Positions 4,594-39,945 of a DNA stretch of 64,000 bases are shown here, piece after piece. The position numbers were made by a program, and so were the translations under genes. Source of the stretch: Aliigemmobacter aestuarii (GTDB lineage Bacteria; Pseudomonadota; Alphaproteobacteria; Rhodobacterales; Rhodobacteraceae); contig NZ_SSND01000003.1 of NCBI RefSeq assembly GCF_004799285.1, forward strand, positions 62,001 through 126,000, read 5' to 3'. The first letter of the stretch is position 1; the number at the start of each line of letters is the position of its first letter. The notes below the pieces were generated by a model. The model was not told where the DNA came from. It saw only the letters and a program-made list of their open reading frames with translations, and did not search any database.

Positions 4594-4679
4594 GAAATAC
4601 CCCATACTTCCGGGGAATCATCCATGCGCCCCGCTCGCCGCTGGCAAACCTACCTTACGACCGGGAACAGGTCAAAGCG

Positions 4680-5519
4680 TCACAGGATGGTCCGCAGGTC
4701 CCAGAGTTCGGGGAAAAGCTGCACCTCCAGCATCCGCCGCAGATAGGCCACGCCCGAGGTGCCCCCGGTGCCGCGCTTGAAGCCGATCACCCGTTCGACG
4801 GCGGTGACGTGGTTGAACCGCCAGCGGCGGAAATAGTCTTCGAAATCAACCAGTTTCTCGGCCAGTTCATAGGCGGCCCAATGCGCCTGAGGATCACGGT
4901 AGACGCCTTCCCACATGGCGCGAACACCCGGATGGGCGACCCAGGTCTGGCGCAGGTCGCGGGTCAAAACCTCGTGAGGGACGGGCAATCCGGCGCGGTG
5001 AAGGTGGCGCAGCGCCTCGTCGTAAAGCGAGGGGCGGGCCAGTTCCGCCTCAAGCCGCGCGGCAAGGTCGGGCCGGTGGGCATGGGGGCGCAGCATCGCA
5101 AGGTTACGGTTTCCGACGGCGAATTCGATCAGCCGGTATTGCCAGGACTGGAAGCCGGACGACTGGCCAAGGTCGTCGCGGAAGGTCGAATAATCCGAGG
5201 GCGTCATCGTGCGCAGCACGTCCCAGGCATTGTTCAGCTGTTCGAAGATGCGCGCGATGCGCGACAGCATCTTGAACGCCTGCTGCGGGGTGTCCGCTGC
5301 AATCAGGCGCCGCGCCGCGTCAAGTTCATGCAGCGCCAGCTTCATCCACAGTTCCGAAGTCTGGTGCTGGATGATGAACAGCATCTCGTCATGGGCGGCG
5401 GTCAGCGGCCTTTGGGCGCCCAGAACGGCGTCGATCGCGAGATAGTCGCCATAGGACATGCGGCCGTCAAAGGCCATCTGCGCGCCGTCCGTGGCGGGGT
5501 CGAGTGGGGTGTTGGTCAT
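4680..5519 (-). CDS. kynA: tryptophan 2,3-dioxygenase
   Basis: A 279-residue, full-length haem dioxygenase that opens the indole ring of L-tryptophan to N-formylkynurenine, the first step of the kynurenine pathway. Recognised by [14 protein letters not shown] with active-site His52, Arg114 in [20 protein letters not shown], and the axial haem ligand His237 in [20 protein letters not shown]. The ATG at 5519 was chosen because the frame upstream encodes only Pro/Arg-rich nonsense and the length from here matches the family. It is the last gene of the kyn operon, downstream of kynU and a GNAT gene. The second-step enzyme, kynurenine formamidase (kynB), is not in this window. Confidence 0.96.
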
Positions 5520-5574
5520 GTGTCGCTCCGTTGATCTGCGTCCGGCCCCGTGGGGGCATTCTGGCGGGCGCGGA

Positions 5575-5685
5575 TCAGCGGCGGCTGCGGATCGAGGAAT
5601 TGCCCATCCGCCGCCAGAGGCAGGCCCAGGCCGACGGGCGGCAGAGCGGCGGCAGGTCGGGCAGGGGGGCGGGGGCACCGGCCAT
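5575..5685 (-). CDS. possible 36-residue ORF coupled to the GNAT gene
   Basis: The ATG overlaps the TGA of the upstream acetyltransferase gene by one base (TGATG), and the frame runs 36 codons to TGA, ending 55 bases before kynA. The product is [20 protein letters not shown] followed by a Cys/Trp/Arg-rich end. It has no recognisable domain. The coupling geometry is the only support. In such GC-rich DNA a 36-codon frame can arise by chance. Confidence 0.3.
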
Positions 5686-35086: not shown

Positions 35087-35566
35087 TCACGGCGCGGCGT
35101 TGCCCAGGGGGACCACCGACAGCGACATCTTGCCCGATCCCTGGGTGATCTCGCTGGCGTGGGCGAGGTAGATCAGCGCGTTGTTCCCTGCGTCATAGAT
35201 CCGCGTCACCTTCAGCGATTTCAGGATCAGCGAGCGACCTTCGCTGAACACCTCCTCGCCGTCCTCGCCGCGGTCGATGTTGCCGATCACGATGGGGCCG
35301 GTCTGCGTGCAGTCCACCGCCGACCAGGACGGATCCTCGAACCAGTTGCCCTGTTGCAGACGGTCGATCAAGGAGCGTTCGAAATAGGCCAGGTGGCAGG
35401 TCACGCCCTGAACCTTCGGGTCGGCGATCGCCTCGATGATGATGTCGTTGCCGACCCAGTCGACGCCCACCTCGCCCACCTGTTCGGCAAGGGCGGGAAG
35501 TGTTGCGGCAGTAAGGGCGGCGGCAAGCAGGGCTGTGGCAAGAAGGGGCGGGGCGGTTCGGGTCAT
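35087..35566 (-). CDS. creA: CreA family periplasmic protein
   Basis: A 159-residue secreted protein with a clear signal peptide (ending PALA, about residue 27). The mature region matches CreA: VGVDWVGNDIIIEAIADPKV, GVTCHLAYFERS, and DPSWSAVDCTQTGPI (conserved Cys pair). CreA is widespread in proteobacteria but its role is not established. GGAGACCCC precedes the ATG at 35566, which supports it over the ATG four codons upstream. It stands alone, divergent from the leucine operon. Confidence 0.88.
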   Translation of the reverse strand: MTRTAPPLLATALLAAALTAATLPALAEQVGEVGVDWVGNDIIIEAIADPKVQGVTCHLAYFERSLIDRLQQGNWFEDPSWSAVDCTQTGPIVIGNIDRGEDGEEVFSEGRSLILKSLKVTRIYDAGNNALIYLAHASEITQGSGKMSLSVVPLGNAAP

Positions 35567-35664
35567 CGGGGTCTCCATCCTGTCAGGGGATCAGCCTGCG
35601 GCCATTGCCGGGCTTGCGCAAGCGGGAAGGAAAAGCTTGCGCGACTCGCCCTGTCGGGGTTATT

Positions 35665-35700: not shown

Positions 35701-36861
35701 ATGTTCACCGCGTCGATGCGTTTCGATCTGGGCGAGGATGTCGCCGCGCTACAGGACATGGTGCATCGTTGGGCGCAGGAGCGTGTGAAGCCGCTTGCCG
35801 CGAAGGTGGACCGCGACAACGTCTTTCCCGCCGACCTCTGGCGCGAGATGGGCGAATTGGGCCTTCTGGGCATCACCGTGCCCGAGGAATACGGCGGCGC
35901 GGGCATGTCCTATCTGGCCCATGTGATCGCGACCGAGGAAATCGCGCGGGCCTCAGCCTCGGTCAGCCTGTCCTATGGCGCCCATTCCAACCTCTGCGTG
36001 AACCAGATCAAGCTGAACGGCACGGAAGACCAGAAGCGCCGCTATCTGCCGCGGCTTCTGTCAGGCGAACATGTGGGCGCGCTGGCCATGTCGGAACCCG
36101 GCGCCGGGTCGGATGTGGTGTCGATGAAGCTGCGCGCCGAACGGCGAAACGACCATTACGTCCTGAACGGCAACAAGTACTGGATCACCAACGGCCCCGA
36201 CGCCGATACTCTGGTCGTCTATGCCAAGACCGATCCCGAGGCGGGGTCGCGCGGGATCACCGCCTTCATCGTCGAACGCGGCTTCAAGGGCTTTTCCACC
36301 AGCCTGCATTTCGACAAGCTGGGGATGCGCGGATCGAATACGGCCGAGCTGATCTTCGAGAATTGCGAAGTTCCGTTCGAGAATGTCCTCGGCGAAGAAG
36401 GGCGCGGCGTGCGCGTCCTGATGTCGGGGCTGGATTACGAACGTGTCGTCCTGTCGGGGATCGGGACGGGGATCATGGCCGCCTGCATGGACGAGGTCAT
36501 GCCCTATGTCAGGGAACGCCAGCAGTTCGGCCAGCCGATCGGGAATTTCCAGCTGATGCAGGGCAAGATCGCCGACATGTATGTCGCGCTGAACACCGCG
36601 CGCGCCTATGTGTATGAGGTGGCGCGCGCCTGTGACCGGGGGCAGGTGACGCGGGCCGATGCGGCGGGATGCGTGCTTTACGCCAGCGAACAGGCGATGG
36701 TGCAGGCGCATCAGGCGGTGCAGGCGCTTGGGGGTGCGGGGTTCCTGAACGACTCGACCGTCAGCCGCCTGTTCCGCGACGCCAAGCTGATGGAGATCGG
36801 CGCAGGGACGTCCGAGATCCGCCGGATGCTGATCGGGCGCGAACTGATGGGCGCGGTGTGA
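35701..36861 (+). CDS. ivd: isovaleryl-CoA dehydrogenase
   Basis: A 386-residue acyl-CoA dehydrogenase converting isovaleryl-CoA to 3-methylcrotonyl-CoA in leucine breakdown, passing electrons to ETF. FAD-contact motifs [18 protein letters not shown] and [10 protein letters not shown] are present. The catalytic base is Glu247 in [12 protein letters not shown], the position used by isovaleryl-CoA dehydrogenases, rather than the C-terminal Glu of most other acyl-CoA dehydrogenases. GGAGGGAAAGGCC precedes the ATG. It is the first gene of the leucine operon and is coupled to the next gene (GTGTGA). Confidence 0.94.
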
Positions 36862-37361
36862 TCCGCGCGACCGCCCTTGCGCTTGCCCTTCCCGCGGCGG
36901 CGCTGGCCGGACCGGCCGAGGATGTGGCGGGTTGCCTTGCCGCGTCGGACGCGGCCTTCGCGGCCGGTGCAGGGGGCGCGTTCGACATCCGCTGGGACGG
37001 GCTGCGCGGCATCGTCGCGGACGAATCCGCCTGCCTGAACCGCGCGATCGCGGCCTGCGCCCATGCCGATGGCGAGGCGGGGTGTTTCCCGGCGCTGCGG
37101 GGCGCTCTTTCGGCGCAGCACGCGCAGGCCATGTCGGGCCTGCCGCTGACCGACGAGGTGGAGGGCCGGTTGGCCGAACCCTACGCGCGCTGGCGTGACG
37201 AGCGGGACCGTTCGGCGGGTCGGCCCGATGGCGGCGCGGGGCACTGTCCGCTGCACGAACCGATCCGGGCCGAAGGCTGTCCCGTGATGGCCGAGGCAGC
37301 GCTGCTTTTGCGGGCGCGGGACTGGGCGCGCGTGTTCGACCTGATGGAGACACTCGAATGA
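36858..37361 (+). CDS. Cys-rich secreted protein in the leucine operon
   Basis: A 167-residue protein with a GTG start that overlaps the ivd stop by 4 bases. Residues 1-17 (ending PAAALA) form a signal peptide. The mature part has eight or so Cys, spaced like the LprI-type protein encoded next ([45 protein letters not shown]) and a central [13 protein letters not shown] segment. I do not recognise a family directly; a diverged LprI-like protein is the best guess. Coupling on both sides means it is translated with ivd and mccB. Confidence 0.72.
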
Positions 37362-37885
37362 CTGCGAAACGTTCTGGGGCTGCGATGCTGATCGCCCTCT
37401 GTCTGGCGGGGGCCGCGACGATGGCCGCCGCGCAGGATGCCGAACCCGTCTTTTCGCCCGCGCTGACAGAAGACTGCCTGGCCGAATCCCTTGCGGCGGG
37501 CTTCGACCCGGCCGAGTGCATCGGCCGTGCGGCGGAGGCCTGCATGAACGGGTCCGACATCGGCGGCTCCACCGTGGGGATGAACCTCTGCATCGGGGCC
37601 GAACTGGGGTGGTGGGATACCCGGCTGAACGCCGCCTACCGGGTGCTGATGGCCCAGAACGAGGCGACGGATGCCGAAATGGCCGAACTGGGCACCAGCG
37701 CGCCGAAGATGGCCCCCGCGCTTCGCGACATGCAGCGCGCCTGGATCGCCTTCCGCGACGCCGCCTGCGCCTACGAGGTGACGTGGTGGGGCGGCGGCAC
37801 CGGGGGCGGACCGGCCTGGAACGGCTGCATGATGGACCTGACCGCGCGCCAGACGCTGCGGCTTGAAGCGGGGATGGAACGCTGA
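37358..37885 (+). CDS. LprI/DUF1311-family secreted protein
   Basis: A 175-residue protein with a signal peptide ending AAAQ. The mature domain has the DUF1311/LprI pattern: four-plus conserved Cys (DCLAE, AACMN-like [25 protein letters not shown]) and [16 protein letters not shown]. LprI of Mycobacterium inhibits lysozyme; most bacterial members are uncharacterised envelope proteins. It starts within the stop of the preceding gene (ATGA), and its TGA shares a base with the mccB ATG (TGATG). There is no evident reason for such a protein in a leucine pathway operon. Confidence 0.85.
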
Positions 37886-39489
37886 TGCAACTCAAATCGT
37901 CCTTCCTGGCCGGATCCGAGGCCGCCCGCGCCAATCGCACGGCGCATCTGGCGATGCTTGACACCGTGGCAGAGGCTGCGGCGCAGGCCGCCGCAGGGGG
38001 GGGCGAGGCCGCCCGCACGCGCCATGTCGCGCGCGGCAAGATGGCCCCGCGCGACCGGGTGGCGAACCTTCTCGATCCCGGCGCGCCCTTCCTGGAAATC
38101 GGCGCGACGGCGGCGCATGGCATGTATGACGGTGCCGCGCCTTGCGCGGGCGTGATCGCCGGCGTGGGCCGGGTGATGGGGCAAGAGGTGATGGTCGTCT
38201 GCAACGACGCGACCGTGAAAGGCGGCACCTATTACCCGATGACGGTCAAGAAACACCTGCGCGCGCAGGAAATCGCCGCCGAATGTGCGCTGCCTTGCGT
38301 CTATCTGGTCGACAGCGGCGGCGCGAACCTGCCCAACCAGGACGAGGTATTCCCCGACCGCGACCATTTCGGGCGCATCTTCTACAACCAGGCGCGGATG
38401 AGCGCGGCAGGCATCCCCCAGATCGCGGTGGTGATGGGGTCCTGCACCGCCGGTGGTGCCTATGTGCCCGCGATGTCGGATGTCACCATCATCGTGAAGG
38501 AACAGGGCACGATCTTTCTGGCCGGCCCCCCCCTTGTGCGCGCTGCGACCGGCGAGGTCGTTTCCGCCGAAGACCTGGGCGGCGGCGACGTGCACACGCG
38601 GCTTTCCGGCGTGGCCGACTATCTGGCCGAGGATGACGCCCATGCGCTGGCCCTTGCCCGCCGTGCGGTGGGCAACCTCAATCGCGCCCGTCCCGCAACC
38701 GTCCAGTGGCAGACGCCCGAAGACCCTGCGTATGACCCAGACGAGATCCTGTCGGTCGTGCCCGCCGACCTGCGCACGCCCTATGACATCCGCGAGGTGA
38801 TCGCGCGGGTGGTCGACGGCTCGCGCTTCGACGAATTCAAGGCCCGTTTCGGCGAAACGCTGGTGACGGGTTTCGCCCATGTCATGGGCTGCCCGGTGGG
38901 GATCGTGGCCAACAATGGCGTCCTGTTCTCCGAAGCCGCGGTGAAGGGCGCCCATTTCGTGGAACTCTGTTCGCAACGCGGCATCCCGCTGGTGTTCCTG
39001 CAGAACATCACCGGCTTCATGGTGGGGCGGAAATACGAAAACGAAGGGATCGCCCGCCACGGCGCCAAGATGGTGACGGCGGTGGCCACCACCAATGTGC
39101 CCAAGATCACCATGCTGGTGGGTGGCTCCTTCGGGGCGGGCAACTACGGGATGGCGGGCCGCGCCTATTCGCCGCGTTTCCTGTGGACCTGGCCCAATTC
39201 CCGCATCTCGGTCATGGGCGGCGAACAGGCCGCCGGGGTGCTGGCGACCGTCAAGCGCGACGGGATCGAACGGGCGGGCGGCACCTGGTCGGCCGAGGAC
39301 GAGGCCGAATTCAAGCGCCCCACGATCGAGATGTTCGACCGCCAGTCGCATCCGCTCTATGCCTCGGCCCGGCTCTGGGACGACGGCATCGTCGACCCGC
39401 GCAAGACCCGCGCGGTTCTGGCGCTGTCGCTCTCGGCCAGCCTGAACGCGCCGATCGAGCCCACGCGCTTTGGCGTGTTCCGGATGTGA
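37885..39489 (+). CDS. mccB: methylcrotonoyl-CoA carboxylase, carboxyltransferase (beta) subunit
   Basis: A 534-residue biotin-dependent carboxyltransferase. The N-terminal crotonase-like half contains [33 protein letters not shown] (key residues [10 protein letters not shown]), and the C-terminal half has [20 protein letters not shown] and [19 protein letters not shown]. It transfers the carboxyl group from biotin to 3-methylcrotonyl-CoA to give 3-methylglutaconyl-CoA. It pairs with mccA, which lies one small gene downstream. The start shares one base with the LprI-like gene stop. Confidence 0.96.
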
Positions 39490-39492
39490 GGG

Positions 39493-39945
39493 ATGCGCCG
39501 CATGGGGCCCGAGCTTTTCGTCTATGTCGTCCTGACGCTGATCGGCCTCTGGAAGCTGGCCGAATGGGTGGCGCCCTGGCACGGCCTGACCGAGGCCGGC
39601 TGCCGGGTGGGTTACGTCTATGACGGCGACACGGTGGAACTGATCTGCGCCGATGGGCGCGAAACCGCGCGGGTGCAGGGTCTTGACGCGCCCGAGACGA
39701 AGTCCCCCGGCTGCCCCGAGGAGCTGGCGCTTGGCCGGCGGGCCACGGAACGGCTGCGCGAATTGGTGGCGCAAGGCCCGGTCGAGATCTCGGACCTCGG
39801 GCATGAAAAATACGGCCGCCGCCTGATCCACCTGCGTGTCGCGGGCGAGGATGTGGCGGGCGTCATGGCTTCCGAGGGGCTGGCCGTTCTCTATCAGGGC
39901 GACACCCGCCCCGACTGGTGCGCCGAATTGGGGGCCAGCCGATGA
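39493..39945 (+). CDS. thermonuclease (SNase)-like protein between mccB and mccA
   Basis: A 150-residue protein with an N-terminal hydrophobic helix (about residues 6-22), likely a membrane anchor or uncleaved signal. An SNase-like OB fold follows: VGYVYDGDTVELICADGRETARVQGLDAPETK (catalytic-site elements DGDT and the Arg-x-GLDAPE segment), ALGRRATERLRELV, and HEKYGRRLIHLRV, where the Arg-Arg corresponds to the second catalytic Arg. The layout suggests an active extracytoplasmic nuclease. It starts 3 bases after mccB and is the second envelope-type gene inserted in the pathway operon. Confidence 0.85.
   Translation: MRRMGPELFVYVVLTLIGLWKLAEWVAPWHGLTEAGCRVGYVYDGDTVELICADGRETARVQGLDAPETKSPGCPEELALGRRATERLRELVAQGPVEISDLGHEKYGRRLIHLRVAGEDVAGVMASEGLAVLYQGDTRPDWCAELGASR

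Follow-up and report, generated by a model that had tools for sequence, protein, structure and literature searches.

The name "lysozyme inhibitor" borne by LprI proteins (DUF1311) rests on LprI of Mycobacterium tuberculosis. Salmonella ScwA is a periplasmic LprI-domain protein with two disulphides, which, according to the available text of the report (PMC7933661), brings about higher levels of MltD, a lytic transglycosylase, in a manner that requires the disulphides, and affects other peptidoglycan enzymes as well. Because its authors, in the same text, could find no lysozyme-inhibitor role for ScwA, the family name needs caution. LprI proteins have further been proposed, in the available parts of two reports, to serve as immunity proteins against T6SS effectors that act on peptidoglycan (PMC8867033, PMC12135965), and a variant of VgrG3 is described in the available part of another as a muramidase against which a cognate protein, TsiV3cp, confers immunity (PMC9927483). 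By analogy, a partner among peptidoglycan-cleaving enzymes may be the common thread of LprI proteins.

Among the matches listed in a search of the open-access literature, no paper dealt with an association between LprI/DUF1311 proteins and the leucine-enzyme genes of Rhodobacteraceae. Here, we analysed such an association in the window, by which we mean the whole stretch of 64,000 nucleotides from Aliigemmobacter aestuarii.

Two exported-looking proteins are encoded inside the leucine operon

The gap between ivd and mccB holds two genes, P0001 and P0002 (Table 1). An earlier note on this DNA had read overlaps of 4, 4, and 1 bases across the four genes, and the start and stop coordinates bear this out. 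The stop of ivd at 36861 overlaps the GTG start of P0001 at 36858 by 4 bases (GTGA), the stop of P0001 at 37361 overlaps the ATG of P0002 at 37358 by another 4 (ATGA), and the stop of P0002 and the ATG of mccB share the single base 37885. With ivd and mccB as the reference for codon usage, P0001 scored as coding, and members of its family are present elsewhere. Both proteins had also been described as exported, in agreement with the signal-peptide-like hydrophobic N terminus that we read by eye in each sequence. P0002 contains seven cysteines, six conserved and one in the signal-like N terminus, and P0001 contains six. The order of the two anchors is not peculiar to the window, as ivd precedes mccB in relatives too. 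Just upstream of ivd, the minus strand encodes another exported-looking protein (35087-35578), which we take to be CreA-like.

Table 1. Genes of the ivd-mccB region, in window coordinates.
Feature	Position	Strand	Remarks
ivd (acyl-CoA dehydrogenase, isovaleryl-CoA dehydrogenase-like)	35701..36861	+	Pfam Acyl-CoA_dh N/M/1; upstream anchor
P0001, exported-looking six-Cys protein, family B	36858..37361	+	no Pfam match; in ivd-mccB gap
P0002, exported-looking LprI/DUF1311 protein	37358..37885	+	PF07007
mccB, methylcrotonyl-CoA carboxylase carboxyltransferase subunit	37885..39489	+	Pfam Carboxyl_trans, E 1.5e-151; downstream anchor
P0005, small SNase-domain protein	39493..39945	+	PF00565, E 2.1e-08; directly after mccB

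P0002 belongs to the LprI/DUF1311 family

P0002 matched PF07007 with an E-value of 2.6e-24 (86.1 bits; gathering cut-off 22) and was the only protein to do so in the source genome (3.76 Mb, 99.98% complete). Its AF2 model is all-helical (pLDDT 95.5). Comparison with solved DUF1311 structures gave Z 10.4 for 3gi7_B (96 of 98 residues) and 10.6 for 6ar7_A, although a Z below about 13 can reflect an arrangement common among helical proteins; Foldseek returned 3gi7 with a probability of 1.00, though at E 0.27. The sequence match and the predicted fold together confirm the earlier assignment of P0002 as an LprI/DUF1311 protein. It shares sequence family and predicted fold with M. tuberculosis LprI, ScwA, 3gi7, and 6ar7, and has the signal-like N terminus and conserved cysteines common to these proteins. 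It differs in having six conserved cysteines where ScwA has four, and it carries no further Pfam domain and hence no MliC. Unlike the known LprI systems, it sits in a leucine operon.

Within the same range of Z that helical proteins can commonly reach, the model also resembled 4noo, a T6SS immunity protein of Vibrio cholerae (Z 8.8, 91 residues). The entries 4noo, 4nso, and 4nsr, which we take to be TsiV3, the partner of effector VgrG3, gave Z 8.5-8.8 over 86-91 residues, and the next unrelated entry gave 5.6. When PDB sequences were searched with an LprI profile, 4noo was not among the matches at E<=10, and the likeness is one of fold alone. Neither neighbour of P0002 resembles an effector gene. 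In PHROGs, P0002 matched one family of unknown function (E 1.3e-6), and PADLOC gave no match for P0001, P0002, and one core member of the family B described below.

LprI genes recur between ivd and mccB

We searched the ivd-mccB region of 80 loci chosen by MccB alone, using profiles grown from P0002 and P0001. Going by their titles, 39 of the loci are from Rhodobacterales, a set that includes L062 ("Proteobacteria bacterium isolate RHODO2") and excludes L035 (Rhizobium). The gap contained LprI in 20 of these (E<1e-5) and a family B gene in 3. Both anchors were present in 30 of the 41 non-Rhodobacterales loci, none of which had LprI or B in the gap; several of these gaps measure 9 bases, as does that of L083, a Rhodobacterales locus.

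P0002 matches were found in 207 of the 394 genomes of the family. We fetched the surrounding regions for 80 of the 83 best-matching genomes besides the source, omitting G235, G118, and G271, whose matches lie at low contig coordinates. At least one of the anchors was present in 69 of the 80 regions, and both were absent in 11. The gap of 18 loci holds two or three LprI copies, giving the slot a range of 0 to 3. In 31 of 89 loci, the ivd stop shares 4 bases with the start of the first LprI or B gene, which, together with the occupancy of Rhodobacterales gaps, upholds the coupling noted earlier and a long-standing co-location; the last such gene ends within 4 bases of the mccB start, or overlaps it by up to 20, in 10 of the 89. 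LprI in the ivd-mccB gap is a recurrent feature of Rhodobacteraceae and not a local oddity.

Other gap contents include an AMP-binding ligase, an FMN reductase, DUF1622 and EcsC proteins, a short protein that has a single span and matched nothing in Pfam, and, on the opposite strand, a TetR-like gene named by eye. Among the few of these other gap proteins that we scanned, none matched an immunity family significantly. A family of about 95 amino acids, here called T, whose members have a single hydrophobic span near the N terminus and in many cases two cysteines, recurs in the gaps of L057, L059, L064, L065, L119, and others, as well as in seven of the nine newly found family B loci described below; seven members were scanned and gave no significant Pfam match.

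P0001 belongs to an undescribed six-cysteine family

P0001 matched no Pfam or NCBIfam entry, and a single-sequence search of 194 other genomes returned no relative at E<=0.001. We picked by eye four other gap proteins of similar cysteine pattern as seeds along with P0001, and the resulting five-seed profile found 16 strong members of a family B plus those of L139, L065, L176, and L137. When the profile was built without P0001, P0001 came top among the outside open reading frames (E 2.5e-6; the next of 8185 at 0.084), a match that is not fully independent, as P0001 had itself served as an initial seed. Against a profile of just the 16 core members, it ranked second after L139 (E 0.076), and a profile alignment of this core with the P0001 subgroup spanned 148 columns (Prob 81.5, E 1.1e-5). 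Six invariant cysteines with a C2-x7-C3 spacing are present in all 18 rows of the family alignment, and the B genes of L065 and L176 have the same location and GTGA overlap with ivd as P0001. In PDB sequence searches, P0001 found nothing below E 0.9 and the B profile nothing below 0.45. Judged by its profile matches, P0001 belongs, as a distant member, to an undescribed six-cysteine family.

We then searched the 394 genomes with the 18-row profile, P0001 included. Matches were found in 31 genomes at E<=0.001 and in 27 at E<1e-10, the source genome counted, and all 27 of the latter lie in the ivd-mccB gap (in G098, where the contig ends, only the mccB side is visible). Eighteen of these genomes are the source or had been fetched earlier for LprI, which leaves an independent part of nine (G053, G072, G011, G084, G390, G228, G448, G443, and G452), in which the B gene is in the gap without exception. 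LprI also occupies the gap in 18 of the 27, the source included; it was not found in the gap of the nine independent genomes. In G228 and G011, a single TGA falls within the listed match, yet open frames span the B domain. Away from ivd and mccB, we found matches in G436 (E 1e-8) and G073 (E 2.9e-5), and weak matches with stops occurred in G103, G369, and, as a second match, G265. Thus, as far as profile matches can tell, family B is found almost only at the ivd-mccB junction.

In L233, a tandem pair of B genes precedes mccB (4605-5608, minus strand), and LprI was not found there. The protein of G436 (L234, 4186-4686) is a B-like six-cysteine protein outside the leucine operon, whose cysteine spacing, judged by eye, seems to fall between those of B and LprI.

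Profile comparison does not support common ancestry of P0001 and P0002

The earlier note had pointed to a similar cysteine spacing in the two proteins and had suggested that P0001 might be a diverged relative of P0002. Under this explanation, which is compatible with the others considered below, they would be tandem paralogues of one LprI-type ancestor, with the similarity of P0001 since lost. The claim about spacing held in part: six invariant cysteines are common to both families, and C2 and C3 are separated by seven residues in both (C-x7-C is present in 107 of 109 LprI and 21 of 21 B sequences), but the remaining spacings differ (32-7-8-53-10 in P0001; 13-7-15-58-19 in P0002). Both models are all-helical, and tandem LprI copies exist in the slot, which also speaks for paralogy.

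The suggested relationship itself found no support in profile comparison. When the two families were compared with hhalign, the signal peptide alone was aligned (Prob 6.7); the mature parts gave Prob 0.4, with a score under both reversed controls, and enlarged alignments were still insignificant. PF07007 matched none of the 18 B members at E<=10, in a search whose HMMER filters drop most weak matches.

Weak scores pointed in both directions. Eighteen of the 51 other open reading frames that matched the B profile built without P0001 at E<=10 are LprI, compared with about 110 LprI among all 8185, maybe because the full-length proteins share signal peptides. On the B model, mature LprI proteins scored a mean of 0.57 bits against -0.08 for cysteine-preserving shuffles; however, reversed LprI proteins outscored the real ones (mean 1.45). 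On the LprI model, the score of P0001 was 3.1 bits, above the 95th percentile of shuffled B proteins (2.4). The P0001 model, predicted from an alignment of four sequences (pLDDT 73.6, pTM 0.71), had no significant Foldseek match among 350,542 chains; 3gi7 came fifth, though at E 6.2, and aligned with VIA Z 4.1 over 91 residues, whereas unrelated helical chains reached Z 6.8. Common ancestry of P0001 and P0002 is not supported by profile comparison, and we consider it rather unlikely.

LprI genes change faster than the operon around them

In the one pair for which we calculated dN/dS (L053 and L058), LprI gave 0.145, ivd 0.066, and mccB 0.056; LprI is constrained in this pair, yet changes faster than the operon flanks. 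In L057 and L065, the mccB products are 95% identical, but identity between the LprI proteins is about 25%. A B gene is present in L065 and was not found in L057, and these differences suggest a turnover of slot genes. Over 83 loci, the median identity was 42% for LprI and 82% for mccB. The distances of LprI and mccB were hardly correlated (rho 0.038), a test of little power, as the ivd-mccB control itself gave just 0.18.

No T6SS sheath gene is found in the source genome

A search of the source genome for the T6SS sheath protein TssC/VipB gave no match, with a positive E. coli control. With ivd, P0001, and mccB as adjoining genes and no sheath gene in the genome, P0002 does not have the surroundings of a cognate T6SS immunity protein. 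Any immunity role of P0002 would thus be an orphan one. Across the family, TssC was present in 23 of the 69 confirmed LprI-gap genomes, the other 46 having no match, and in 78 of 325 others (Fisher p 0.13); because the latter count the source genome among them and, probably, more genomes whose gap LprI genes lay outside the fetched set, this comparison speaks neither for nor against a link between T6SS and LprI in the gap. In such a role, P0002 would resemble the orphan immunity genes of gut bacteria (PMC12247911) in having no cognate effector in the genome; here, however, the carrier is a metabolic operon, the cargo is in part not immunity-like, and the target is putative.

A variable slot for putative modulators of peptidoglycan-cleaving enzymes

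The slot carries one known protein type, LprI, and one undescribed family, B. The explanation that we find best, and hold tentatively, is that the ivd-mccB junction of Rhodobacteraceae serves as a variable cargo slot, often filled with small exported cysteine-containing proteins that would inhibit or modulate, in the periplasm, enzymes that cleave peptidoglycan. P0002 would be a helical protein that is exported to the periplasm, becomes oxidised there, and binds an enzyme that cuts peptidoglycan in the manner of lysozymes or lytic transglycosylases. Its target could be either a foreign muramidase effector, as for orphan immunity, or an endogenous hydrolase, as for homeostasis. P0001 might play a similar part towards another target, a guess made from its position since its model had no significant fold match. 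Both proteins may in this way shield the wall of the cell against enzymes like lysozyme. Their genes would stand outside leucine chemistry and borrow the transcription of the operon, and its translation through the coupled starts. Counting against this explanation are the AMP-binding ligase, FMN reductase, DUF1622, and EcsC cargo, which is not immunity-like, the 11 fetched LprI regions without either anchor, and the lack of a lysozyme-inhibitor role of ScwA in the hands of its authors (PMC7933661). A more far-reaching version, in which Rhodobacteraceae hold rapidly changing orphan inhibitors of lysozyme-like toxins coupled into a core metabolic operon, with B as a new inhibitor class bound to the slot, strikes us as rather improbable.

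About as doubtful is endogenous cell-wall homeostasis, in which LprI would tune the lytic transglycosylases or amidases of its own cell in the manner of ScwA and be co-expressed with the leucine genes because branched-chain acids signal the growth state, which would make the link with leucine metabolism one of regulation. The control of MltD and the effects on other peptidoglycan enzymes described in the available text on ScwA (PMC7933661) fit this explanation, as do the single PF07007 protein and missing sheath gene of the source genome and the purifying selection on LprI in the one pair. However, it predicts one conserved orthologue, while the slot has 0 to 3 copies and LprI identity is low compared with that of mccB. 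A part for P0001 and P0002 in leucine or isovalerate use, such as short-chain acid binding or protection of a periplasmic transporter, is very unlikely. In its favour, every genome matched at E<1e-10 has its B gene within the leucine operon, a closer tie than freely moving cargo would be expected to show, but 19 of 39 related operons have ivd and mccB without LprI and 36 of 39 without B, and fold searches gave no significant ligand-binding match.

If the junction is such a slot, one family has turned a single junction of a catabolic operon common to other proteobacteria into a recurrent site for exported small proteins. The slot opens two types of protein without an assigned target to study through genomes, LprI in Gram-negatives and family B, and the function of both is directly testable in laboratory Rhodobacteraceae. 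It also warns that location inside an operon need not imply a common pathway.

The slot may not be the only place in this operon to receive cargo. An SNase-like gene such as P0005 follows mccB in 11 other loci (L043, L053, L066, L081, L082, L121, L127, L130, L154, L170, and L185), and P0005 is possibly a further cargo gene of the leucine operon. By eye, its N terminus contains a hydrophobic stretch.
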